A stretch of DNA of 64,000 nt from a virus: positions 1 through 64,000 of the IMG/VR virus record IMGVR_UViG_3300032236_000771. One strand, written 5' to 3'. Both the position numbers and the translations under genes were made by a program. A model generated the notes under the pieces. That model was not told the DNA's origin, made no database searches, and saw nothing but the letters and a program-made list of their open reading frames with translations. The first letter of the stretch is position 1; the number at the start of each line of letters is the position of its first letter. Positions 11,375 through 51,334 of the stretch are shown piece by piece.

Positions 11375-13044
11375 TCGAGAACCAATCCTTTGTTTCCAGA
11401 AGCACCATTCCTATTGCCAATAGGCGTGTAGGTAGTGCTCCAAGTATTGCTGTCTGGGTAATCAGGGTAACGACTAAAGCCAATGTCAACGTAACTCAAG
11501 ATTGGAACCATTCGCTCGTTAAACATCACGTGGTTCACCATCATGGTATTGACGTAGCCGTAGTATCGAAGATTAGGACCTAGGTGTAGCTCTACCTTAC
11601 GGCGACTGAAGAAGCCCATGTCCGCAGTCATTTCATACCGCAACTGGCTTTTCATGGTGTAGCCCAAGAGAACACGAAGCAAGTACTCAACGTCATACAT
11701 GGTGCCCTTGTTGTAAATGGCGTTCTGCTCATCGAATTCGATACCATGGGCTTTAGCTTGAGCCAAGTTCCAAGGATTACGTGGAGCATACAGGTTGGCA
11801 GCCAAAGCCTCTGACTTCAAAGTCCCATCCGTGTTGTAATACTTCATGTCGTACATACGGTTTAGCAAAATCTTAAAACTAATGCTGGCTGAGGCAACGT
11901 TAGGCGGGATGTAGTTGGCTGGGTCTTTACCAGACATCTGTAGTGCCACGTCCGTCTGAGCAACTCCCAAGTAGTTCATGTTGATTGACCCAGGGTTGTA
12001 TAGGAACTGGAACCCATACTTCTTTTGAGACTCATTCTTTGGGAAACCAGATACCGTGCCGTTGTAGTCAGTGACTCCCCCAGGTGGGAAGTAGGTCTGG
12101 AACATGCCCTTGCTACCTTGGACTTCTCGCCACAACTGTTTAGCGTCCAGTACTGCAGAAGGCGAGTTAGACCAAGTATTTCCTGGAATACCATTGACCG
12201 CTAGGTCCGCTTCTTCAACAGTTGTGTGTGCAGTTGCACGGGTAGGTAGGTAGCCTTCCTTGACAGAACCAACGTTGTAAATAACTGGTTTTGCATCTAG
12301 GTCAGCCTTTGAGATAAAGTTGCCCGGTGGTTGAGTGGTGCCTCCACCGTTGCCACTGAAAGAAGAAAAAGGAAGGCCAGCGGTGCCAAAGATGTACTTG
12401 CTGGCATTTGCTCCAGCCAACTTCTTGAACAAAGCAACTTCTGGAGCAAGTTGTGCTGAGGCCTTGTCTAACTTGCTTGAGATGGTTGAAATACGTGCCT
12501 CAAGCTCCTTCTTAAATACTCGAAAGTTTAGTCCCGTTAGGCTTGCTCTATCCAGCTCAGGGCTAATTGGTGCATTTGGACTTTCTGGGGAATGCCAAAG
12601 CATGTTATCTGCGGGAAAGTAGACGTCGTAAGGGCCGCCATCATCGTTACCATCTACGTTGTAGAGTGGTGAGCCAACGTATTCCGTTGGTAGAGCATTG
12701 TAATCGCCAGTAAAAAAACCTGTGTGGTGAATCCACCTTCCCTTTGCGTTAGAGAAGAAATTGTGCACAGCGGCCTTAGATACCAGTGCACTTGGCTGAC
12801 CATCGTAAGCATGACTAGCGTGTGCAGGGGGAGAAAAACTGCCAGAGCATTTATTCAACAAGTCCTGTAGCAGAAATAGCTGTCCCTTGTATTTCTCAAC
12901 CTCTTGCCACTTAGGGCTCCAAACCCAGTCAGACAGTTTATTAATCTTTTGCTGTTGAGCAAGGGTTTCTTGCTTTTGGGTCGGATAGATTCTGTATGCG
13001 TCTTCTTTAGCCGCACCTCTTGGAGTACCTGGATGTCCTGACAT
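11371..13044 (-). CDS. Tail/baseplate protein upstream of LysM protein
   Basis: This protein has 557 residues. The N-terminal 230 are helical (QKQETLAQQQKINKL; ELEARISTISSKLDKASAQL). The C-terminal half has FQFLYNPGSINMNYLG, then SASISFKILLNRMYDMKYYN and VEYLLRVLLGYT. A phenylalanine-rich FxFNPxxI motif before a strand-rich domain is known from contractile-tail tube-initiator or baseplate proteins that pair with LysM proteins. The helical N-terminal extension is unusual. It lies between tape measure and LysM gene; the exact role is inferred. Confidence 0.65.
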   Translation of the reverse strand: MSGHPGTPRGAAKEDAYRIYPTQKQETLAQQQKINKLSDWVWSPKWQEVEKYKGQLFLLQDLLNKCSGSFSPPAHASHAYDGQPSALVSKAAVHNFFSNAKGRWIHHTGFFTGDYNALPTEYVGSPLYNVDGNDDGGPYDVYFPADNMLWHSPESPNAPISPELDRASLTGLNFRVFKKELEARISTISSKLDKASAQLAPEVALFKKLAGANASKYIFGTAGLPFSSFSGNGGGTTQPPGNFISKADLDAKPVIYNVGSVKEGYLPTRATAHTTVEEADLAVNGIPGNTWSNSPSAVLDAKQLWREVQGSKGMFQTYFPPGGVTDYNGTVSGFPKNESQKKYGFQFLYNPGSINMNYLGVAQTDVALQMSGKDPANYIPPNVASASISFKILLNRMYDMKYYNTDGTLKSEALAANLYAPRNPWNLAQAKAHGIEFDEQNAIYNKGTMYDVEYLLRVLLGYTMKSQLRYEMTADMGFFSRRKVELHLGPNLRYYGYVNTMMVNHVMFNERMVPILSYVDIGFSRYPDYPDSNTWSTTYTPIGNRNGASGNKGLVLE

Positions 13045-15134
13045 TATCTACTTCCCATACTTGAAGTCATTGCGTGTTCGTCGAGAATCTGCTTCACGGT
13101 CTCTGCAAACTTTCGTGCCTCGGCCTCTGATGCTTGAGCAATAGTTAGGTTGATGTCTACCTTGGTGCCACCGCCCATAACCGAGCCACCACCCGCTGGG
13201 GTAATCCCGCCAAGACTCATGCCAGAGTAAGAACCACCAACGCCAGTAGCGGCAGTGGATGCAGAAGTTCCCAGCGAGTAAGAACGGCCTTGGTTAGAAG
13301 ACCCTGTCCATGCTGGAACACTAGCCGAAGTTGTTGGGGCACTAATGCCCAGCAAGTCGTTGACAGAAGCAGATAGTGTGGCTCCAGAGAAACCGCCAGC
13401 ATCGTTTGTAGACGACGTGCTGTATTTTCCATTACCCGCTTTAGATGGGTCAATCTGAGCTGCACCAGTAAGGATTACTGATGGGTCTACTGGAGTTCCA
13501 TCCTTAGTAACCTCAAAGTGCAAGTGAGGACCAGTAACGTGTCCGCTGTGGCCCGAGGTACCGATGCGTTGACCAGCAGTTACCTTTTGCCCCGGCTGGA
13601 CATCGGCACTAGAAGGGTCCAAGTGAGCATAGATAGTTTTGTACCCATTGCCATGGTCCACAGTGACATAGTGCCCAAATGAGTACGCTCCGCTACCTAC
13701 TGAGTCAGTAGAGACAACACCGTCTGCCGCTGCGTAAACTGGAGAACCGTCGCGAACTCCGTAGTCCACACCGTTGTGTCCTTGAGCACCCCACATTGGC
13801 CCCATCTCGTGCCATGTAGCAGTGATTGGTCCATTAGCGGGTACCGCTGACCCACTAGACGAGGCACCAGTTCCGCCACCAGAAAATGCACCAGTTCCGT
13901 TACCGCCAGAAGTTCCACCCTTAGGCACGATGCTTCCAAGAGCACTGCCTATAGTGGAACCCAGCAAAGCACCCGCAACAGTTCCTCCACCGGGCTCAAT
14001 AATCGTTCCAACGATTCCGCCCAAAACTGCTCCACCGATAGTCATTGCACCAGAGAGGGCTGAAGAACCTTTTTGCACTGCTTGACCAGCAGGGGTTCCT
14101 GCAGCAGTCTGCAACTGAGCGTTGAGCTGGCCGAACTGGGTAATGGTGTCCTTGATTACGCCATTCAATGAAGCAAACCACGCAGCAGCTTGATTGGCAC
14201 CTTGCTCATAAACACCAGATGCGGTGCCCATTTGGTCCGTCATGGTGGTGTTGATACTTAATGCCGATGCAAGTGGGTTGGTATTTCCCTTAGCATTGTT
14301 TGCCCCCATAATACTTTTCATCGCCGCATTGTTGGACAAGTCCATGTTCTTGCCGCCAAGTTTATTGACCATGTATGACATGAACATAGTCTGCTGGTCT
14401 TGGCTCAAACCAAGGTTATTGAGGTCAGCACCCAAGTTGCCTCGACGGTAACTATCCATCAAGTTAGTTACATTGAGGTTTCCGCTATTGCCAGAGAATA
14501 CCTGATTAGCAATCTGACCAAAGATTTGACTTTGAGTGAGAGATTTACCCGTCATTGGGTCTGAAGTGTAGATGCCCAAGGACTGCATCATGTTTGCTGA
14601 GGTCTGACCAGATGTCAGGCCCTCAAGGGCAGTGGCAGCGGACTGGTTATCCATGCCCAGATACTTGGCAGCGTTTGAGGTAGACCGCATCAACTGCATG
14701 TAGGTGCTGTTAGACGCAGTGCTGAAGTTAACGCCTCGACCCATGAAGTAGTTGGACACCATCGAGTCCGCACCAGGCGAAGTGATTCCTCCAGCCATAG
14801 CACTGAAGGATGCCTTCATCATGGTCTGCTTGTTGTACCCAGGAGCAAAGATGGAGCCCTGATAGTAGCCCATGTTATAGGTTTGGGTAGCAGCCACATT
14901 CGGCATTGCGGCAGCCATACCTGAAATTACGCCACTAACGACATTTCCCACACCGCCCACAAGGTTGGAAGCAAGCATGCTTCCTGGGGTCATGCCTCCC
15001 ATAGAAGAGCCAACGCCTCCACTCGAGCCACCAGCAAGAAGGGTGCTGAGTTTAGGGAGGACTGCGTTTAGTTTAGAATCGAGGTTGGCAACGGCACGGG
15101 TTAGGCCATCAACCTGTTGAGTGGTATCAGTCAT
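13044..15134 (-). CDS. Tail tape measure protein with M23 peptidase domain
   Basis: This 696-residue protein is Gly/Met/Ala-rich with long hydrophobic helices (about 60-110 and 365-410), as in tape measures. Residues about 435-550 are an M23 zinc peptidase: HNGVD supplies the first His/Asp ligands near 452-456, and GPHLHFEV near 533-540 gives the HxH motif. Such domains cut peptide cross-links in the wall during DNA injection. It shares one base with the next gene and overlaps the chaperone frame by 8 nt. At 696 residues it is short for a contractile tail, suggesting a tail near 100 nm. Confidence 0.85.
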   Translation of the reverse strand: MTDTTQQVDGLTRAVANLDSKLNAVLPKLSTLLAGGSSGGVGSSMGGMTPGSMLASNLVGGVGNVVSGVISGMAAAMPNVAATQTYNMGYYQGSIFAPGYNKQTMMKASFSAMAGGITSPGADSMVSNYFMGRGVNFSTASNSTYMQLMRSTSNAAKYLGMDNQSAATALEGLTSGQTSANMMQSLGIYTSDPMTGKSLTQSQIFGQIANQVFSGNSGNLNVTNLMDSYRRGNLGADLNNLGLSQDQQTMFMSYMVNKLGGKNMDLSNNAAMKSIMGANNAKGNTNPLASALSINTTMTDQMGTASGVYEQGANQAAAWFASLNGVIKDTITQFGQLNAQLQTAAGTPAGQAVQKGSSALSGAMTIGGAVLGGIVGTIIEPGGGTVAGALLGSTIGSALGSIVPKGGTSGGNGTGAFSGGGTGASSSGSAVPANGPITATWHEMGPMWGAQGHNGVDYGVRDGSPVYAAADGVVSTDSVGSGAYSFGHYVTVDHGNGYKTIYAHLDPSSADVQPGQKVTAGQRIGTSGHSGHVTGPHLHFEVTKDGTPVDPSVILTGAAQIDPSKAGNGKYSTSSTNDAGGFSGATLSASVNDLLGISAPTTSASVPAWTGSSNQGRSYSLGTSASTAATGVGGSYSGMSLGGITPAGGGSVMGGGTKVDINLTIAQASEAEARKFAETVKQILDEHAMTSSMGSR

Positions 15135-15336
15135 CCAACTTCACCTTTCCTCGTTCTCGGGCTATCTCTAGCCAGTTCAGTCTTTCTCTACGAGATAGGC
15201 TCTTGATTTCCTCAAGAGTCCATCCCGGATAAATCTCGGTAATTGTGGCCCACTGATTCATCAGTAGGTTGAACCCCGTAACACTAGAAGCGAAACAACG
15301 CTCCAAGCGATACTGGAACCACAACCTCTCCACCAC
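15127..15336 (-). CDS. Tail assembly chaperone, second frame
   Basis: This 69-residue frame starts at a GTG at 15336 that lies inside the preceding chaperone gene, in its +1 frame. The first ATG is at 15261 (44 residues), 22 nt after the first chaperone stop. The C-terminal TLEEIKSLSRRERLNWLEIA resembles the short extension product made from tail assembly chaperone genes next to tape measures. It may be expressed by frameshifting, by re-initiation at 15261, or from the GTG. Overlap with the tape measure start is 8 nt. Confidence 0.65.
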   Translation of the reverse strand: MVERLWFQYRLERCFASSVTGFNLLMNQWATITEIYPGWTLEEIKSLSRRERLNWLEIARERGKVKLDD

Positions 15337-16099
15337 AGTCTGGACAAGTCACCTTGACCGCTTCAAACTTTGGTCCCGGTGCCCGCTTGACAATCTCTTC
15401 GACAATCTTTCGACGGTCAACCAGACCCAAGTTCTGCACCTGTAGTGGACTTACTACTGGACTTCCATTTATCTCAATAACGGTGTTCTCGAGCAAAATG
15501 GTCGTCAACTCTGCCGAGTTCTTCTCCTCAGCAGCGATAATCTCTCGTTGAGTCATGCCAGTTGGCAGACTCACCAAGAACTCCCCCTTATTACCTTGGA
15601 CGGTAAAGTTTCGGTCAGCAATTGGGTCTACCAGAACCTTGCTCTGGATGTCGCCATCGATGTCCACAGAAACCGTCTTGAAGTCCTTGCATCCATCGCA
15701 GAATGCCCCTAGTTCAGCAGTCTTGCCGAAAGTCGCCTTGTAAATACCAAGAAGAAGAGCATCTCGGTCACCCGCTAGAAGACCATCCAAGACTCCTTCC
15801 GTGGCCTTTTTGTTTCCAATAGAAACCACAGCTCGGTTCAGAATCGTGACCCAAGTCTTGCCTTGGTTAGTCAAACGACCAATTGCCTCTTCATCCTTGC
15901 CGTTTAGTTCTCGAACTTCTGCGGTCCTAATGACCTCCCCAGTATCACTGATGTATCCACCAGGGAGGGTCACTAGGTTGTCCGCAGGAGAAGCGAGGTT
16001 GGCTTTTTCGATTGGTGCTACAGGTACAGCGGTAGCGTCTTCAACCATTGCGTTGAATACGTTTGGATTACTTGCTGCACTGACGGTGTTATTTTCCAT
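15284..16099 (-). CDS. Tail assembly chaperone / gp26-like baseplate protein
   Basis: This 271-residue protein has the VRELNGKDEEAI motif near 60-72 that is typical of the tail assembly chaperone (gp26-like) proteins encoded before the tape measure in contractile phages. It has a CDGC pair at about 133-136 and a C-terminal CPDC pair, together able to bind zinc. Its end overlaps the second chaperone frame by 53 nt. The last codons before the TAG include TTG TTT CGC TTC, where a +1 slip would continue into the downstream frame. Confidence 0.75.
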   Translation of the reverse strand: MENNTVSAASNPNVFNAMVEDATAVPVAPIEKANLASPADNLVTLPGGYISDTGEVIRTAEVRELNGKDEEAIGRLTNQGKTWVTILNRAVVSIGNKKATEGVLDGLLAGDRDALLLGIYKATFGKTAELGAFCDGCKDFKTVSVDIDGDIQSKVLVDPIADRNFTVQGNKGEFLVSLPTGMTQREIIAAEEKNSAELTTILLENTVIEINGSPVVSPLQVQNLGLVDRRKIVEEIVKRAPGPKFEAVKVTCPDCGGEVVVPVSLGALFRF

Positions 16100-16115: not shown

Positions 16116-16739
16116 TTACTGGGTTAGTGCTTCTGCCGAACCAGCAGTTGGTTCTTCGTTTAGACCAGGTAGCTTGGTTGCCCAAGTTGAGTCCATGCCC
16201 TCGTGAACAACGGTGAGCTGCTCTACGAAGATAGCGTTGTCCGCTGCGTTGAGGTCCGAGTAAGCCAGCGAAGTAATCCACGCATTGTAGATGTAGAAAC
16301 GCTGTGCGATGTGGTCCTGGTTACGAGAGCCGTCCTCTGAGCCAGCACCAGCGATTGGGTGCGAGAGAACCTGAATCTCGATGTCGCAACGGAAATTGTT
16401 GGCACCGACGTTGGTAGCGGTTGAGCCACCCTGTACGGTTGCAAACAACTTACGCATCCACTCCCAGTTCTGCTTGGTGCCAAGAACGACGCCACGCTGG
16501 AAGGTGACTGGAGAGAACGTGGTCTGACCAGGGATTTGGTGGAAGGTGGTGTTGTAGCCACCCTCACGGTAAGGGATTGAATCGGTGGTAACCGACAGAC
16601 CCGATACCGAGGTGAATCCAAGCAAACCCGAAGGCACGTTTGGAGTGTTCGAGTCTAGCGGGGTGAACTTGACCAAGAAGCGGAAGTTTCTTAGCGGGTC
16701 AGTCGCTAGAGTAGAGCGGTTGTTAACAATAGTTGCCAT
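16116..16739 (-). CDS. Tail tube protein, gp19-like
   Basis: This 207-residue protein has the conserved gp19 features: DPLRNFRFLVKF at the N-terminus, LGFTSVSGLSVTTDSIPYREGG, then PVTFQRGVVLGTKQNWEWMR. It forms the inner tube rings under the sheath. It is 12 nt downstream of the sheath gene and upstream of the chaperones, the expected order. Confidence 0.93.
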   Translation of the reverse strand: MATIVNNRSTLATDPLRNFRFLVKFTPLDSNTPNVPSGLLGFTSVSGLSVTTDSIPYREGGYNTTFHQIPGQTTFSPVTFQRGVVLGTKQNWEWMRKLFATVQGGSTATNVGANNFRCDIEIQVLSHPIAGAGSEDGSRNQDHIAQRFYIYNAWITSLAYSDLNAADNAIFVEQLTVVHEGMDSTWATKLPGLNEEPTAGSAEALTQ

Positions 16740-16751
16740 TGTCTATTCTCC

Positions 16752-18263
16752 TTAGTTAGCAGTCTTTTGACTGATGTTGATGACCACAAACTCGGCAGGA
16801 TACTGGAGGGCAACTCCGACCTGAATGTGAACTTCACCGTTAGCGATGGTCTGAGCGGTGTTGTTCTCAGCGTCAACCTTTACAAAGTAAGCCTGTGCAG
16901 GAGTAGTTCCACGCAGACCTCCCTGGTTACGGTATGCGTTTAGGAATACGCTGATGGTGGTTTGGATTCGTGCCCAAAGGTCCTCATTATTGTTCTCAAA
17001 GAGAGCAAACTGAGTGAGGTCATTGAGCGACTTCTCGATGTAGTTCAGCGAACGACGCATGTTTACATATTTGTTCGATGTTCCATCCTGAAGCAGGGTA
17101 CGAGCACCCATCGATACAACTCCAGCACCCGGCAGGTTGCGGAGAGCGTTGATTGGGTATGCACCAGAGTTCAAAGCGTCCAACTCAGATGAGGTGAACA
17201 ACTTCTCGAGTGCAAGGGCACCCTTTACGCCAGCGTTCAAACCTGCAGGGGCCTTGAATGGTCCCGACTGCTTGTCAGTCTGGATGTAAAGTCCAGCGAT
17301 AGCACTTGCTGGAGCAACCTTGCGGAGTGACTGCAGACTACGGCCTACTGGGTCAGTAATGTAGTAGTTAGGGAAGTAAACCGCTGCGTGGCTTGAGCTG
17401 GTCAGTCCCGCTGCATAGTCAAGTGCATCTGGAACAGCCGTTGAAGGTGCCGAGATTGCTGGGGTGTCAATTACAGCAAAGCTGTAAGTCGAGTCTGCCC
17501 AAGCAATCAGTGCATTGTGAACGGTAGTTGCGTTAGTCGAACCCAACTTAGCGATAACCTCAGGAGCAAAGACAACCAGTGGGCGGTCAATTGCACCGAA
17601 GTCAGCGACTGCACCCGAGTAGTCGGTAGCAGTAGCGGCCGAACCATCAGCCCCATTTACCAAAGGCAATACAGCGGTGGTAGGGGTCTTGGTCAAGTCG
17701 CTGACCGAGATGGTGATTGCGTTTGAGGCGTTGTTTACTACCGACTCAACGAAGTCGCCCGAAGTGCGGTCATTCACAACAACGTTGGTGTAACGCTCAA
17801 GGATGATGTCATCAGCAACGTTAGTTGGGGTGTTGCCACCTTCCTTGTAGACAGTCAGGTCAAAGTAGCCCGACTGAGCTGCTGCGGTGAACTGAATACG
17901 TAGGTTGTTGCCGTCTGAACCAAAGTCCTTAGCCGTAACGGTAGCCATAGTGTCGGTACCGTTAGTGGTGTGAGGAACAACAATGCTGGCCTTGACTGCA
18001 TCAGTGTGGACAACGCGACGAACGTAGAGTTCGCTACCGCCATTCTGGAAGAACTGGCCAACACCGAAGGTTGCTGGGTAACTAACGTTGTAACCGCCAA
18101 AACGCTTTACAAAGTCATACCACGAGGTAACCAAAGTTACCGAGGTTGGTCCCTGAGCAAACTCGCCAACAGCAGCACCCGCAGCATTTGCGGAACTGGT
18201 TGCAGCAATCTGAGCAGGGAGCAGAGTTTCACTGATGTAAACACCAGGACGCTGATACGTCAT
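16752..18263 (-). CDS. Contractile tail sheath protein
   Basis: This 503-residue protein starts with YQRPGVYISE and continues with AAVGEFAQGPTSVTLVTSW and FGVGQFFQNGGSELYVRRVV, all typical of sheath proteins (gp18/XkdK family). The C-terminal domain (MRRSLNYIEKSLNDLTQFALF, then QTTISVFLNAYRNQGGLRG, then the strand EFVVINISQ) is the sheath handshake region. It establishes myovirus morphology. A strong RBS (AGGAGA) precedes the ATG. Confidence 0.95.
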   Translation of the reverse strand: MTYQRPGVYISETLLPAQIAATSSANAAGAAVGEFAQGPTSVTLVTSWYDFVKRFGGYNVSYPATFGVGQFFQNGGSELYVRRVVHTDAVKASIVVPHTTNGTDTMATVTAKDFGSDGNNLRIQFTAAAQSGYFDLTVYKEGGNTPTNVADDIILERYTNVVVNDRTSGDFVESVVNNASNAITISVSDLTKTPTTAVLPLVNGADGSAATATDYSGAVADFGAIDRPLVVFAPEVIAKLGSTNATTVHNALIAWADSTYSFAVIDTPAISAPSTAVPDALDYAAGLTSSSHAAVYFPNYYITDPVGRSLQSLRKVAPASAIAGLYIQTDKQSGPFKAPAGLNAGVKGALALEKLFTSSELDALNSGAYPINALRNLPGAGVVSMGARTLLQDGTSNKYVNMRRSLNYIEKSLNDLTQFALFENNNEDLWARIQTTISVFLNAYRNQGGLRGTTPAQAYFVKVDAENNTAQTIANGEVHIQVGVALQYPAEFVVINISQKTAN

Positions 18264-27626: not shown

Positions 27627-28688
27627 TTAACTGATGGTGATATCCCCAATTGTACTGCCTTGGTTGTAATTAGTAGGGGTAACTACAATTCCGTATTTAG
27701 GAGTAAGGGCAACGCCAGTCGGGGTGTAGACCCAGTCAGAGTCAATCTGAGTTACCTGGTTGGTATCTGAGTAAGCCTTGGTAGTAATCTGCGAACCGCT
27801 AGTGGTGATGCGAAGTGACTGAGCTACAGCCGAAATAGCCTGGCTTGCAATTTGGGTTACAGTGTTAGCCACTGACTGGTACAAGCGAATGTACGCAGGG
27901 TAAGTAGTCACAGGGTTGCAGGCGTAGGTGTAGGCGAAATAAGCGTTGCAGTTTGAGCCTGAAAAGTTAGTGTACGCATTGCAGTTGCTCGTTCCGCCGC
28001 TGCAGTTGTAGTACAAATAGCCACCTGAATTACAGACTGCGTTATAGCTATACGCAACACAGGTTGCCGCATTCCAAGACGAGCAATACGTGGCATACCA
28101 AGAAGAGCAGTATGTCGCATACCAAGATTTACAAGTCTTACCAGAGTTATATGCAGAACATCCACCGCCCGAGTATCCTGAGCAGCCTCCACCAGCATAG
28201 GTGGCACAGTTAGAGGTATTAAATGTGTTGCAGGACGCTACGTAGTATACGTTGCCTAGGGTGCAGGCTGCAGTGTAGGTGTTGCACGTAAAGCTATACG
28301 CGTTGCAGTTAGAGCCAGAATAGTTGGTATAGGCATTGCAGTTAGAGGCGTTGCAAGTGCTGTACGTAGTCAGCGTTTCCTGGTCAACTGCAATAGCCCA
28401 CCAGTTACCTGAGTCAGTTACCCAGAGGCCCGCACCAGTTCCATTAGCCGTGCTAAGCAGGTCAATCTGCACGTTCTGCTTAGGCATGCCCACCGTGGCC
28501 AATGGGTACGACGATGGCGAAGTAGAGCTAGAAGCGGCGTTGCCAGAGATGCCCCAAGTACCACGAAGAACATCCCAAGTAGAGCCGTCGCTGGCGGTGC
28601 CTAGAACGCTGGCATTATCCGCACGGTTAAAGGTGTCCTTAAACTTCTTGCGAACGCCAGACGCAATCGAGCCAATATTAATTCTCAT
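27627..28688 (-). CDS. Fibre protein with cysteine-rich insertion
   Basis: The ATG at 28688 shares one base with the stop of the large collagen-like gene, giving 353 residues. Residues 1-110 (DTFNRADNASVLGTASDG, ending NWWAIAVDQ) and 265-353 (YIRLYQSVANTVTQIA...) together resemble one jelly-roll/LamG-like domain. Between them a 146-residue segment (about 27915-28358) holds 18 Cys plus many Tyr, Asn, Ser and Gly in repeats such as NCNAYTN and SWYATYC. It looks like an inserted surface loop, perhaps disulfide-bonded. It probably forms a tip of the receptor-binding fibre. Confidence 0.72.
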   Translation of the reverse strand: MRINIGSIASGVRKKFKDTFNRADNASVLGTASDGSTWDVLRGTWGISGNAASSSTSPSSYPLATVGMPKQNVQIDLLSTANGTGAGLWVTDSGNWWAIAVDQETLTTYSTCNASNCNAYTNYSGSNCNAYSFTCNTYTAACTLGNVYYVASCNTFNTSNCATYAGGGCSGYSGGGCSAYNSGKTCKSWYATYCSSWYATYCSSWNAATCVAYSYNAVCNSGGYLYYNCSGGTSNCNAYTNFSGSNCNAYFAYTYACNPVTTYPAYIRLYQSVANTVTQIASQAISAVAQSLRITTSGSQITTKAYSDTNQVTQIDSDWVYTPTGVALTPKYGIVVTPTNYNQGSTIGDITIS

Positions 28689-31600
28689 TATGCAGTCAGG
28701 TCTCCCGATACTACCCAAGTGTCAGTAGCAATCTTTACCAGCGATACTAGAGACCACTGAGCACGAAGCTTTAGGCCCGGTGTGCCATTTACAGTTACGC
28801 CAGAGCCAGCCACAATCGTGGTCTGTCCAGCACCATACTGAAGCACGGTCAAAGTAGTGCCGATGGCAAATGCCACTGAGGAGTTTGGTGGCACGGTTAG
28901 GTTGTTTGCCGAAGCAACGTTCATCTGAACCAGCACGTTCTTGTCGCTTAGCACCAAGGTGTACGACGAGGTCTGAGCGTTGATGCTAGTGACAGTGGGG
29001 GCATCTGCACCAGTTGGACCTGTGGGTCCCGTAGGTCCAGTTACCGCAGGCCCTGTAGGGCCAGTAGGACCAGTTACGGTAGATGCCGCACCAGTCGGTC
29101 CAGTAGGACCAGTTCCAGTGGTCATCAAGGCAGCCGAGAAGTATGTTCCCTGACTGCTGCTACCGCCATACTGAAGCGTTTGCGAAGTCGGGTTACCTGT
29201 GTAAGCGGTGAAGTCTACGTAGTCGGTTGAGCCGTTTAGGTAAACCAACTTGGTGACGTTTTGCGAGTAAGCATTACCAGACAAGGTCTGAGTCTGGTCA
29301 ATGGCGAACGTGCTGCCATTCTTACGCAACTGGATGTTGTTCTGGTTGTTAGTGACCGAAGCAACCGCCCACCATGCTTGGAGGGTAACCTCGTAGTAGC
29401 CAGCGTAAAGCGGAGTGAACTTCTTAGTCGAAGCGTTCCACCAAGAGTTAGGGTCAAAGTCAGCCACAAATGGGATGACCAAGTCTGAGCCATTAGTAAC
29501 CGTCTGGTCACCAGTCAACTTACCCTGAGTAACGGTGTTAGTTGCAGAGATGTTAGCACTTGGACCAGTAGGGCCTGTTGGTCCAGTCGGACCCGTAGCC
29601 CCAGTAGGACCAGTTCCACCGTTGTTTCCTGGAACACCTTGAGGACCAGTTGGACCTGTTGGACCTGTCGGACCAGTAGCACCAGTAAGGCCAGTGGCAC
29701 CAGTAGGCCCAGTTACCGTAGAGGCGGCTCCCGTAGCACCAGTAGGGCCAGTCGGGCCAGTTGGGCCAGTTGGGCCAGTAGCTCCTGTTGGGCCAGTGGC
29801 ACCGTTATTTCCAGCGGTTCCTTGGATACCCTGAGAACCCTGAGCACCCTGCGGCCCTGTCGGTCCAGTAGGTCCCTGAGCCCCTGTAGGGCCCGTAGGG
29901 CCAGTTACAGTCGAAGCGGCACCAGTGGCACCAGTTGGACCAGTAGGCCCTGTAGGACCCTGTGAGCCCGTGCTACCAGTAGGACCAGTGGCACCAGTTG
30001 GTCCAAGTTGGGTGTACATAACCTGAGTAGCGGTTACGATAACACCAGGGGTTGCTGGGGTAGTTGGAGTAGTTCCAGCGGCAATAGTCTCAATAGATAA
30101 AGAAGTAGACTCTGCCTGCCACCAGAACTCAATGTAGTCATTAGCCGCAACGGTAAAGACAAAGTTCACGGTCTCAAGCATCTGACCGTTAATTCCACCG
30201 TGGGAGTTAGGGACAGTCAACTGGCTGCCTGAATAAGGCATGTCTGTGCCGTTCTTACGCAGCCACAAGTTGGCGTTGGCAATTGACGATGAAGTGTTGA
30301 CCAACTGAACCGAGATGGTGACGCTATAGGTTCCAGCGTGTTGGAAAGTTAGGCGACCAGCAGCGTCGTTCGCTACACCATTGGCCTCGTAGGTGTTGTT
30401 GATGTCTACGAGGTAGGCAGTGGTGGTGCTTGAGATGTTCTGGGTGGTGGTGTTGTAGAACGAGCCGTAGTAACCCAGGGCACCGCCAGCACCAGTGGCA
30501 CCAGTAGGACCGACAATCTGGCCTACGTTGTTCCAAGTAGAGCCGTTCCAGACATAAAGGTCGCTGTTCGACTGAACGATGTAAGCATCGTTAACCGAGT
30601 TGCCAGAGCCTGGCAAGTTAACTGGGGCTGCTACTGAGCCCTTCAAGTTGATTGAGGTACCCTGCGGACCCGTTGGTCCAGTTGGGCCCTGCGGACCCGT
30701 TACGTTAGACGCAGCACCAGTTGGGCCAGTTGCTCCCGTTGCACCTGTAGGTCCCTGAGGGCCTGTGGCTCCAGTTGCTCCAGTAGCACCAGTTGGGCCA
30801 GTAGCACCCGTCGCTCCCGCATTGCCCTGAGTACCCTGCGGACCCTGTGGGCCTGTGTCTCCTTGTGGGCCAGTTGGGCCTGTGTTTCCACGAGGGCCAG
30901 TGGCACCAGCTGGACCAGTGGCACCTGTCGCACCAGTAGGTCCAGTTGCTCCGTTAGAACCAGCAGGTCCAGTTGCTCCAGTAGGGCCAGTAGGGCCTGA
31001 GCCAGCAGGGACGTTGACCCACGCCTGAAGTCCCGCATCAAACGCAATAACATCGCCATCGGCAAGAGTTAGTGGGTCTACAAGGAGGTCACGAAGTTCC
31101 TCAAGAGTAGGGAGGAACTTAGGGTAAACAAATACCTGACCAGCGGTGGCATCCTGGAAAAGGCACACGCCGATTGGGGTACCGAAGTAAACGCCCGTAG
31201 GGTAGTCGGTAGTAAGTTGGCCGTCATCGTAGGTGAAGACAACTTGCCCTTCAACTAGGGACGAGGTGTCTAGGCCGTGGACAACGCCGTAGGTGGTTAC
31301 GTAGCCTAGTTCACCCGCAAGGATGTCCTGAGTAAGAATGCCCAAGAAGCGTTCGGCAGAGCCGTCATTGGTATCGGTAACGTGGTCAACAACAAGGTTA
31401 TCGTTGTCTGAGCCTGTTACATAAACGGCACGACCGTTAAGAAGAGTGTGGCCCGCACCATTCTTTACAAGCTGGTTTAGTTCTTGGCCAATTTGCAAGT
31501 TAGCGTTGCCGTTAAGCATCTGGAACTCAAGAGTTCCAACCTGGGCATTCCAAGCCAACTGACCCGGCTGCTGTGAACGGTAGTCACTGTCTACAGCCAT

Positions 31601-32311
31601 AGATAGACGTGTAAAGGCATCAGTGCCGTCTAGAAGGGCAGAAGTATTGGCATCGCTTCCAGAAGGACCAGTGTCGCCCTGAGGCCCCGTAGGACCCAAA
31701 TCTCCTTGAGGACCAGTAGGTCCAGTATCGCCTTGTGGTCCAGTAGGACCGAGGTCTCCCTGAGGGCCCGTAGGTCCTTGAGAGCCCGCTTCACCAGCAG
31801 GCCCCGTAGGTCCTTCCGAACCGTTCTCGCCAGCAGGACCAGTCGGTCCTGTAGGCCCAGTGTCGCCTTGAGGACCAAGGCTTCCTTGAGGTCCAGTAGG
31901 TCCCTGGTCTCCTCGCTCACCAGCAGGTCCAGTTGGGCCAGTTGGGCCCGCAGGTCCAGTTGGACCAGTAGGACCAGTCGCACCAGTAGGTAGCGGGATA
32001 GTGTTCTGTACCCAACCACCGTCTGCATACGTGTAGATGTAGACGATGGTCGGGTCAGTAGAGAGAACAAATGCCCACTGCTGTGGCTGAAGTCCGCTAG
32101 GGAATCCTGACTCTAGGTCAGACAGCGATGGGTAGGTGCCAGCGAACTGGGCAGGGTGTCCCTCTGCACCAGTTCGTGGCGACCAGGTAGAGCCATCGTA
32201 AACATACACAACTTCGTCATTAGTATTGAAAAAGAGGTCGCCAGTGTGGCCCACCGACGGCAGCGTACTGCCAGTCGGTAGACCTACTGGGGTGAGAAAT
32301 TTTCTAGACAA
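28688..32311 (-). CDS. Large collagen-like tail fibre with C1q-like heads
   Basis: This 1207-residue protein starts [14 protein letters not shown], with a short beta head, then collagen-like Gly-X-Y blocks at about 113-212, 440-555, 785-920 and 1075-1115. GPT and GAT units dominate, with some GPQG and GERG. Between blocks lie two beta-sandwich domains with the C1q/TNF-like pattern ([35 protein letters not shown]). A C-terminal beta cap follows. It probably forms a trimeric fibre that carries the adjacent Cys-rich tip. Thr at position Y would allow O-glycosylation. Confidence 0.85.
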
Positions 32312-40034: not shown

Positions 40035-40065
40035 CTCGCCTGACTCACGCTTGTAGCCCCAATGC

Positions 40066-40236
40066 TCAATGGTGCCCTAAGTACATAGCCCAGTTCAAAC
40101 TATAACGGTTTAAACGTGGTCCGTGTACTTCGAACTCCTCATCGGCTAGTTCTACTAGACCCAGTGGAGAAATAGAGATAGTTAAATCGCTACTCGCTGC
40201 ACGGTACGATGGTGGGGAGAAATCGAGGAAGGACAT
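40066..40236 (-). CDS. Portal N-terminal fragment (other frame)
   Basis: ATG at 40236 with an AGGAGG ribosome site 9 nt upstream opens a 56-residue frame (MSFLDFSPPSYRAASSDLTI..., ending SLNWAMYLGHH) that stops at a TGA at 40066-40068. Leaving out one G of the GGG at 40075-40077 would join MYL directly to GTIEHWGYKRESGE and the 507-residue portal frame. The join reads like a normal portal N-terminus. It is therefore the real start of the portal gene, by programmed frameshift, mutation or sequence error. Confidence 0.72.
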   Translation of the reverse strand: MSFLDFSPPSYRAASSDLTISISPLGLVELADEEFEVHGPRLNRYSLNWAMYLGHH

Positions 40237-40292: not shown

Positions 40293-40868
40293 CTACTTGT
40301 AATGTTCTTCTAAAATGGTAGCAATAAGTTGCTCCGTACTAATGCCTAACCTAAGAGAATCTTCTTGCAATTTTGACGCCGTGTCTGTGCTAACTAAAGT
40401 TTTTGCACGAATAATGCTCTCTTTAGTCCCAAGCCATCGGCAGTTTTCAGGAGAGTAAGGCCCATCAGGATTGATTCGGTCAAGTTGTTTCTCCGGGCTA
40501 AATCCGTTATTTAATGCCCATTCCTTAAACGTAAAGAAGTCATTTAGCCATTCGTCACAGACCGTAACTCCGAGTGCTCCATAAAAACGATAATTACCAG
40601 CGTTTTTGTTATAGCAACGTTCTTTAATCTTTAGCCAACGCCTATAGATAGGGGTTCTTGACTCGCCATGGTTTTTGACCCTAGTGAAGGTCTGAACTTT
40701 GCCATCCCGCAAACGAGTCACTTCTTGCCTAGGATTGGTGTCCCATTTTTCTACCCTCTTGATGTGGCGACAATTCTTGCACTGGGACTGTAGTCCGTCA
40801 GCAGTGGTTTTGTTTTTATGGAAATCATCAATGGATTTCACTAGACGACACTTTGAGCAAGGTTTCAT
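40293..40868 (-). CDS. HNH homing endonuclease
   Basis: This 191-residue protein has an N-terminal zinc-finger pair (CSKC...CKNC, residues 4-33), the WLKIKERCYNKNAGNYRFYG segment, and ITVCDEWL-type then QLDRINPDGPYSPENCRWL, the core of a homing HNH family found free-standing in phages. The C-terminal helix may bind DNA. It sits between the terminase/small-gene block and the portal, with its own promoter (TATACT, 6 nt before the ATG), as expected of a mobile gene. GC content is lower than in neighbours. Confidence 0.83.
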   Translation of the reverse strand: MKPCSKCRLVKSIDDFHKNKTTADGLQSQCKNCRHIKRVEKWDTNPRQEVTRLRDGKVQTFTRVKNHGESRTPIYRRWLKIKERCYNKNAGNYRFYGALGVTVCDEWLNDFFTFKEWALNNGFSPEKQLDRINPDGPYSPENCRWLGTKESIIRAKTLVSTDTASKLQEDSLRLGISTEQLIATILEEHYK

Positions 40869-51257: not shown

Positions 51258-51264
51258 TCTGAGC

Positions 51265-51334
51265 TGGTCCACCTGGAATCGAACCAAGAATCACGAGTTA
51301 ACAGCTCGTCGTTATGCCTTTTAACTATGGACCA
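51265..51334 (-). tRNA. tRNA-Asn (GTT)
   Basis: The minus strand folds as a 7-bp acceptor stem (TGGTCCA with TGGACCA), D-arm GTTA/TAAC, anticodon arm ACGAG-CTGTTAA-CTCGT with anticodon GTT, and T-arm CTTGG-TTCGATT-CCAGG. At 70 nt it is slightly short, with a small variable region and a small D-loop. CCA is not encoded beyond the paired end. Phage tRNAs often supply codons needed late in infection. A GC hairpin lies at 51339-51363 just upstream. Confidence 0.88.

Follow-up and report, generated by a model that had tools for sequence, protein, structure and literature searches.

The window analyzed here, a stretch of 64,000 nucleotides, belongs to a virus record of 85,557 bases (IMGVR_UViG_3300032236_000771). 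Its minus strand carries a block of tail genes with the following features:

16752 to 18263, minus strand: tail sheath (PHROG 23 tail sheath, 8.1e-53)
16116 to 16739, minus strand: tail tube, gp19 type (Pfam Phage_T4_gp19, 1.5e-24)
15284 to 16099, minus strand: ORF1, the short form (TAC-N) of a T4 gp26-type tail assembly chaperone; 271 aa, containing two CxxC pairs
15300 to 15319, minus strand: predicted 5′ hairpin GTTCCAG-TATCGC-TTGGAGC, the proposed stimulator, whose 3′ arm ends 4 nt before TTT
15290 to 15298, minus strand: putative shift site TTG TTT CGC (E, P and A codons), with TTT at 15295-15293
15284 to 15286, minus strand: TAG that ends the short form, two codons past the shift codon
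15127 to 15291, minus strand: +1-frame extension, ASSVTGFNLLMNQW...WTLEEIKSLSRRERLNWLEIARERGKVKLDD, 54 codons plus TGA (15129-15127)
13044 to 15134, minus strand: probable tape measure gene with an M23 peptidase domain (Pfam Peptidase_M23, 2e-30; PHROG tape measure matches)

The order on the minus strand is sheath, tube, ORF1, the overlapping +1 frame (ORF2) and the tape measure gene, whose ATG overlaps the 3′ end of the extension. The chaperone pair sits between tail tube and tape measure, a position that it also occupies in four related loci (L002 to L005). ORF1 closes with GCG TTG TTT CGC TTC TAG; the initial annotation had read the end of the first chaperone as TTG TTT CGC TTC TAG, which proved correct on the minus strand. 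The frame containing TLEEIKSLSRRERLNWLEIA is +1 relative to ORF1 and stays open as far as the TGA at 15129-15127. If TTTC is read as a single Phe, ORF1 and the extension give an uninterrupted long form of 323 aa. Elsewhere, the window contains a 1,207-aa tail fibre protein with collagen repeats (28688 to 32311; Pfam Collagen) and a single tRNA gene, tRNA-Asn (gtt), at 51263 to 51334.

ORF1 matched the Pfam family T4_baseplate (PF12322) with 29.3 bits, above the curated cut-off of 24.5, and gave a weak match to PHROG 150 baseplate hub (27.8 bits). Its AlphaFold model had a mean pLDDT of 83.4. Among the structures in BFVD, the model returned 57 matches at E <= 0.001, the best being 'Baseplate hub assembly protein, bacteriophage T4-like' (E 1.8e-20). 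A search of the PDB with the same model yielded no match at E <= 0.001; the top entry was 2ob9, the HK97 tail assembly chaperone, with a probability of 0.96 but an E value of 0.17. At the sequence level, a tblastn chain led from the related locus L093 to SP-15 (E 2e-3), from there to GXN1 (3e-40) and on to KVP40 gp26 (4e-4), and the same route reaches cyanophage gp26. Blastn with locus L096 gave no matches, and hhalign of the fused alignment against T4 gp51 or gp26 singly was not significant (probability 5.7 and 3.9). T4 gp26 has been named the hub assembly chaperone (PMC3004832).

Relatives of the locus were drawn from phage records, viral contigs and genome contigs. The first set comprised 100 loci, with the window as L001; one of them (L094) has no ORF1 match, and four (L043, L078, L084 and L085) stop short of the stop codon. 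Merging of duplicates (identical 90 nt plus ORF2) left 69 loci and the window, hence 70. The second set of 82 loci, its relatives partly from one listing of the best 80 of 511 relatives, contributed 48 that were new and distinct plus L111, which has Thr before TTT; the rest were duplicates. This gave a total of 119 distinct loci, the window among them. The filter of the second set admitted TTC as well as TTT, so that TTT was not imposed. Two loci, L111 and L112, stem from the Streptomyces sp. UNOC14_S4 and Saccharothrix sp. ST-888 assemblies, where they represent prophages or phage contigs and keep the TTT_C arrangement.

TTT was present at the shift site in 119 of the 119 distinct loci, followed by C in 117 and by T in 2, and both loci with T have a stop directly after TTT. 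The motif [RKS][ED]RxxW of ORF2 was found in the +1 frame in all 119 loci as well. The initial annotation had proposed that a +1 slip from TTT to TTC joins the chaperone pair, had called the second frame conserved-looking and had named conservation of the TTTC site and frame in relatives as a check; site, frame relation and extension alike were retained throughout the 119 loci. Within ORF1, the Phe of the shift site was the sole column written with a single codon among 37 near-invariant columns (Met and Trp excluded; first 70 loci), and four other Phe-rich columns of the same loci showed a mixture of TTT and TTC. The codon before TTT was variable (TTG 66, TTA 33, CTG 9, CTT 5, CTA 3, and TTT, TTC and ACC 1 each), and the invariant TTT thus reflects more than mere DNA conservation. 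The A-site codon was CGN in 74 loci, CAR in 42, a stop in 2 and CTC in 1, and a stop followed two codons after the site in 108 of 119. These A-site codons are not clearly slow; per 1,000 codons, the ORFs of the window use CGG 1.95 times (rare), CGC 9.0 times and CAG 27.7 times.

Outside the shift site, C followed TTT in 5 of 283 cases in the ORF1s versus 18 of 101 for TTC. The choice of Phe codon in the window depends on the next base: among 40 uncurated ORFs, TTT accounted for 15 of 87 Phe codons before C versus 205 of 366 before the other three bases. The scarcity of TTT_C away from the shift site looks like avoidance; ordinary codon-context bias would be an alternative explanation.

Directly upstream of the shift site, we found a probable conserved hairpin that the initial annotation had not contained. 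In the window, its minimum free energy is -8.1 kcal/mol, with a P value of 0.09 from synonymous randomization of this one sequence. Further analysis relied on 62 diverse loci with less than 75% mutual identity downstream of the site. Among 60-nt windows, the one at -40 had the lowest fold energy (mean z, -2.06), and the energy dipped again at +80 (-1.80). Of all position pairs within -75 to +59, the pair (-19,-10) had the highest mutual information (0.88; next, 0.58), and both positions are synonymous wobble positions. The core of the stem is CCNA..TNGG, in which the variable pair is TA, GC, CG or AT and the register is shifted in some loci; the stem has eight pairs in L093 and L096 (core CCGCTA/TAGCGG) and reads CCCAC/GTGGG in the Streptomyces phages. 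In an ungapped alignment, 85.0% of the cells pair, compared to 26.5 to 57.6% in slid versions. Double changes in the stem numbered 34 versus 15.5 in shuffles, and the stem covariation was 0.281 versus 0.178, neither value being reached in any of 500 shuffles. Two of the five stem measures (pairs with double changes and further pair types) were not above the shuffles. Synonymous randomization, which keeps the amino acid sequence fixed, gave a mean z of -1.59 for the 62 loci (z below 0 in 60, P below 0.05 in 21), and 11 control windows gave values of -0.57 to +0.16. On a tree of the 119 loci, both sides of (-19,-10) changed on 7 branches versus 1.1 expected, and 6 of these changes exchanged one pair for another; 4 such exchanges were seen at (-22,-7). 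The unpaired control positions (-19,-16) (4 versus 0.5) and (-16,-13) were likewise above expectation, though without an exchange of this type; the excess of (-19,-16) over random placement indicates that the tree test is inflated. RNAalifold predicted no consensus pair on the alignment of the relatives.

Other stimulators were considered. A 3′ structure was rejected as a candidate: just downstream of the site, z was about -1.1 to -1.3, not clearly past other windows, and there was no consensus. Base conservation across the 119 loci gave no evident internal Shine-Dalgarno sequence 5′ of the site. Only the GG of a Gly codon is kept at -9 and -8, and position -7 varies (A 42, G 40, T 21, C 16).

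The comparison was extended to 14 distant gp26-type loci, in which the frame of the extension motif was judged by eye (the ORF1 start of LR756511 is uncurated). The motif lies in the +1 frame in six of them (SP-15, LIS04, GXN1, LR756508, Mel-JY01 and immuto) and in the -1 frame in the other eight (LR756511, Atu_ph07, PA5oct, Bellamy, P-SSM2, KVP40, DSL-LC02 and Cygsa01). Of the +1 loci, SP-15, GXN1, LR756508 and immuto carry TTT_C and the other two TTT_T. Upstream of the site, five of these six have 20 or more open codons in the +1 frame, and their slip point is therefore assumed and not bounded. Six of the eight -1 loci carry T_TTT_TTC. Of the six distant +1 loci, LR756508 alone had a significant 5′ hairpin (P = 0.003); the six distant -1 loci that were included (Atu_ph07, PA5oct, Bellamy, P-SSM2, KVP40 and DSL-LC02) had none. 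The loci from cyanophages, KVP40, PA5oct and Atu_ph07 (L200 to L205) encode gp26-type chaperones with the extension in the -1 frame at T_TTT_TTC. The annotation of P-SSM2 names the small ORF after the chaperone gp51.

A second frame disruption in the window affects the portal gene, whose frame is broken by a TGA at about 40068-40066 on the minus strand; according to the initial annotation, the portal and the chaperone together would make two +1 events in this genome. The window is 7 nt longer than its relatives at this break (CAC CAT TGA GCATTGGGG versus CAC CAT TGGGG; 40062-40068), and the extra nucleotides come with an imperfect CATTGAG/CATTGGG repeat and a stop. A portal match was present in 8 of 14 other records searched, and the frame was open in all 8, which rules out a conserved +1 event and leaves the earlier proposal for the portal unsupported. 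A private insertion or an error is the likelier cause. A ribosome hop between the two portal CAT codons would restore the frame; none of the relatives with a portal match shares this arrangement. Just upstream of the portal lies a 191-aa ORF (40293 to 40868, minus strand) that by eye resembles an HNH-type homing endonuclease.

For the chaperone, a sequencing error in the window has a negligible probability as the source of the apparent frame change. The portal of the same record does have a break that is absent from relatives, but the identical frame relation of the chaperone across all 119 independent records or loci already refutes such an error. ORF2 could instead be a separate small protein with its own start, translated by re-initiation or coupling. 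The window offers an in-frame ATG at 15261 as well as upstream GTG and TTG codons, and three of four Streptomyces records annotate ORF2 as its own CDS (the fourth lists none, and a frameshift is annotated in none of the four). Against a separate protein, the stretch of the +1 frame from the nearest upstream stop to the Trp motif lacks an ATG in 65 of the 119 loci and lacks ATG, GTG and TTG altogether in 17. Moreover, a Tyr codon (100) and a Leu codon (96) upstream of the position of the window's ATG are kept among 102 in-register loci, and independent initiation would leave the invariant TTT codon unexplained. We therefore regard a separate ORF2 protein as highly improbable; translation from the ATG at 15261 only, which the initial annotation had put forward as a refuting outcome, is disfavored by the same data. 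Similarly small, if not slightly smaller, is the probability that the frame is changed by a -2 slip or by transcriptional slippage. A -2 slip would land in the identical frame as a +1 slip, and -2 shifts have been described (PMC5009743, PMC3498833). With -2 slipping, tRNA-Phe would face UGU in the window, and re-pairing to UUU would be possible in only 6 of the 119 loci. A run of three Ts is too short for usual polymerase slippage, and the base after TTT is C, not T, in 117 of the 119 loci. A +1 ribosomal frameshift at TTT_C very likely occurs.

Given a +1 slip, the hairpin could still be a by-product of codon or protein constraint with no role of its own. The failure of RNAalifold to return a consensus, the second energy low at +80, the inflated tree test and the rarity of the hairpin among the distant +1 loci all speak for such a by-product. 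However, positions -19 and -10, which covary, are both synonymous, and the randomization signal was obtained at a fixed amino acid sequence. We consider a by-product unlikely, and the hairpin is the likely stimulator of the +1 slip.

ORF1 and ORF2 thus most probably represent a single T4 gp26-type chaperone gene that is decoded with a +1 slip at TTT_C, with the hairpin as the proposed stimulator. What the comparison of the loci shows is conservation of the site, the frame, the extension and, less certainly, the hairpin; that a slip takes place, how efficient it is and what the hairpin does are our inferences. Most ribosomes would halt at the TAG and release the short form of 271 aa. On some ribosomes, tRNA-Phe would move one base ahead, from UUU to UUC, and translation would continue to the long form of 323 aa; UUC is the better codon for tRNA-Phe (PMC3498833). 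The hairpin in the mRNA on the nascent side would fold up against the rear side of the ribosome, 4 nt 5′ of UUU (3 to 7 nt in relatives), where it might push or hold the mRNA and favor the forward slip. A refolding hairpin beside the E site has been reported to stimulate +1 and attenuate -1 slipping on 70S ribosomes in vitro (PMC6321510). By analogy to lambda gpG/gpGT, short and long chaperones would coat the tape measure and recruit the tube protein; the ratio of the two proteins and what they do would follow from the same analogy.

For the family as a whole, we lean toward a broader scenario, with less confidence. Here, a hairpin that refolds behind the ribosome and replaces the Shine-Dalgarno duplex would drive tRNA-Phe forward on UUU_C and would be kept in a large clade of actinobacterial and freshwater contractile-tailed phages. 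The family would have switched between +1 (UUU_C) and -1 (U_UUU_UUC) at one Phe codon, and T4 would have arrived at split genes. The gp26 genes of cyanophages and KVP40, each with a short next ORF, are like the window in family, in the extension motif and in a shift at the equivalent Phe codon, but they have the extension in the -1 frame at T_TTT_TTC. T4 and the window have PF12322 in common, and the end of T4 gp51 resembles WTLEEIKSLSRRERLNWLEIA of the window by eye. However, T4 gp26 and gp51 are two separate genes on opposite strands without a shift, whereas the window has one shifted gene. According to a citing passage, some T4-like phages have a short plus a fused long chaperone gene (PMC10885494).

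The proposed mechanism shares features with several known systems. Frameshifting in tail chaperones is classic and nearly always in the -1 direction. The frameshifted pairs of tail assembly chaperones, lambda gpG/gpGT among them, were reportedly the subject of Levin 1993 and Xu 2004. Like the predicted arrangement of the window, lambda gpG/gpGT and similar pairs yield both a short and a long chaperone from a single gene, which lies just before the tape measure gene and shifts close to where the first frame ends (PMC5009743). Such pairs mostly use -1 shifts with a 3′ structure, whereas the window has a predicted +1 shift at UUU_C, a chaperone of the T4 gp26 family and a 5′ structure. The +1 site of influenza A virus PA-X is UUU_CGU, in the context UCC_UUU_CGU (PMC3498833), and it resembles the window in the P-site slip from UUU to UUC and in a CGN codon in the A site. 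PA-X is decoded by the eukaryotic ribosome with no evident stimulator (PMC5009743), in contrast to the conserved upstream hairpin and the stop two codons on in the window. The prfB gene (CUU_UGA, with an internal Shine-Dalgarno sequence) likewise combines a bacterial +1 slip with a duplex immediately before the P site. In prfB the A site holds a stop, as in 2 of the 119 loci here, which mostly have sense codons; the duplex of prfB forms between mRNA and 16S rRNA, whereas here it would be an mRNA hairpin. A +1 shift is also very likely in the chaperone of the haloarchaeal myovirus HSTV-2 (PMC5009743, PMC8211752), which is like the window, by shift direction alone, in that a +1 shift is proposed for the chaperone of a contractile-tailed virus.

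Our literature search, in the portions of text that it covered, found no +1 shift described either for gp26-type chaperones or for these Streptomyces phages; the full text of Vladimirov, Gautam and Davidson 2022 on the T4 chaperones lay outside it. The announcement of phage BRock mentions neither frameshift nor tail nor chaperone. If our interpretation is true, the locus would represent a widely conserved +1 slip of bacterial viruses at UUU_C, a class predicted from PA-X (PMC3498833). The hairpin would then be a natural upstream hairpin of the kind that stimulates +1 slipping in vitro on 70S ribosomes (PMC6321510). With the split gp26/gp51 genes of T4 standing beside relatives of both +1 and -1 type, the evolution of frameshift direction would become testable in this family.
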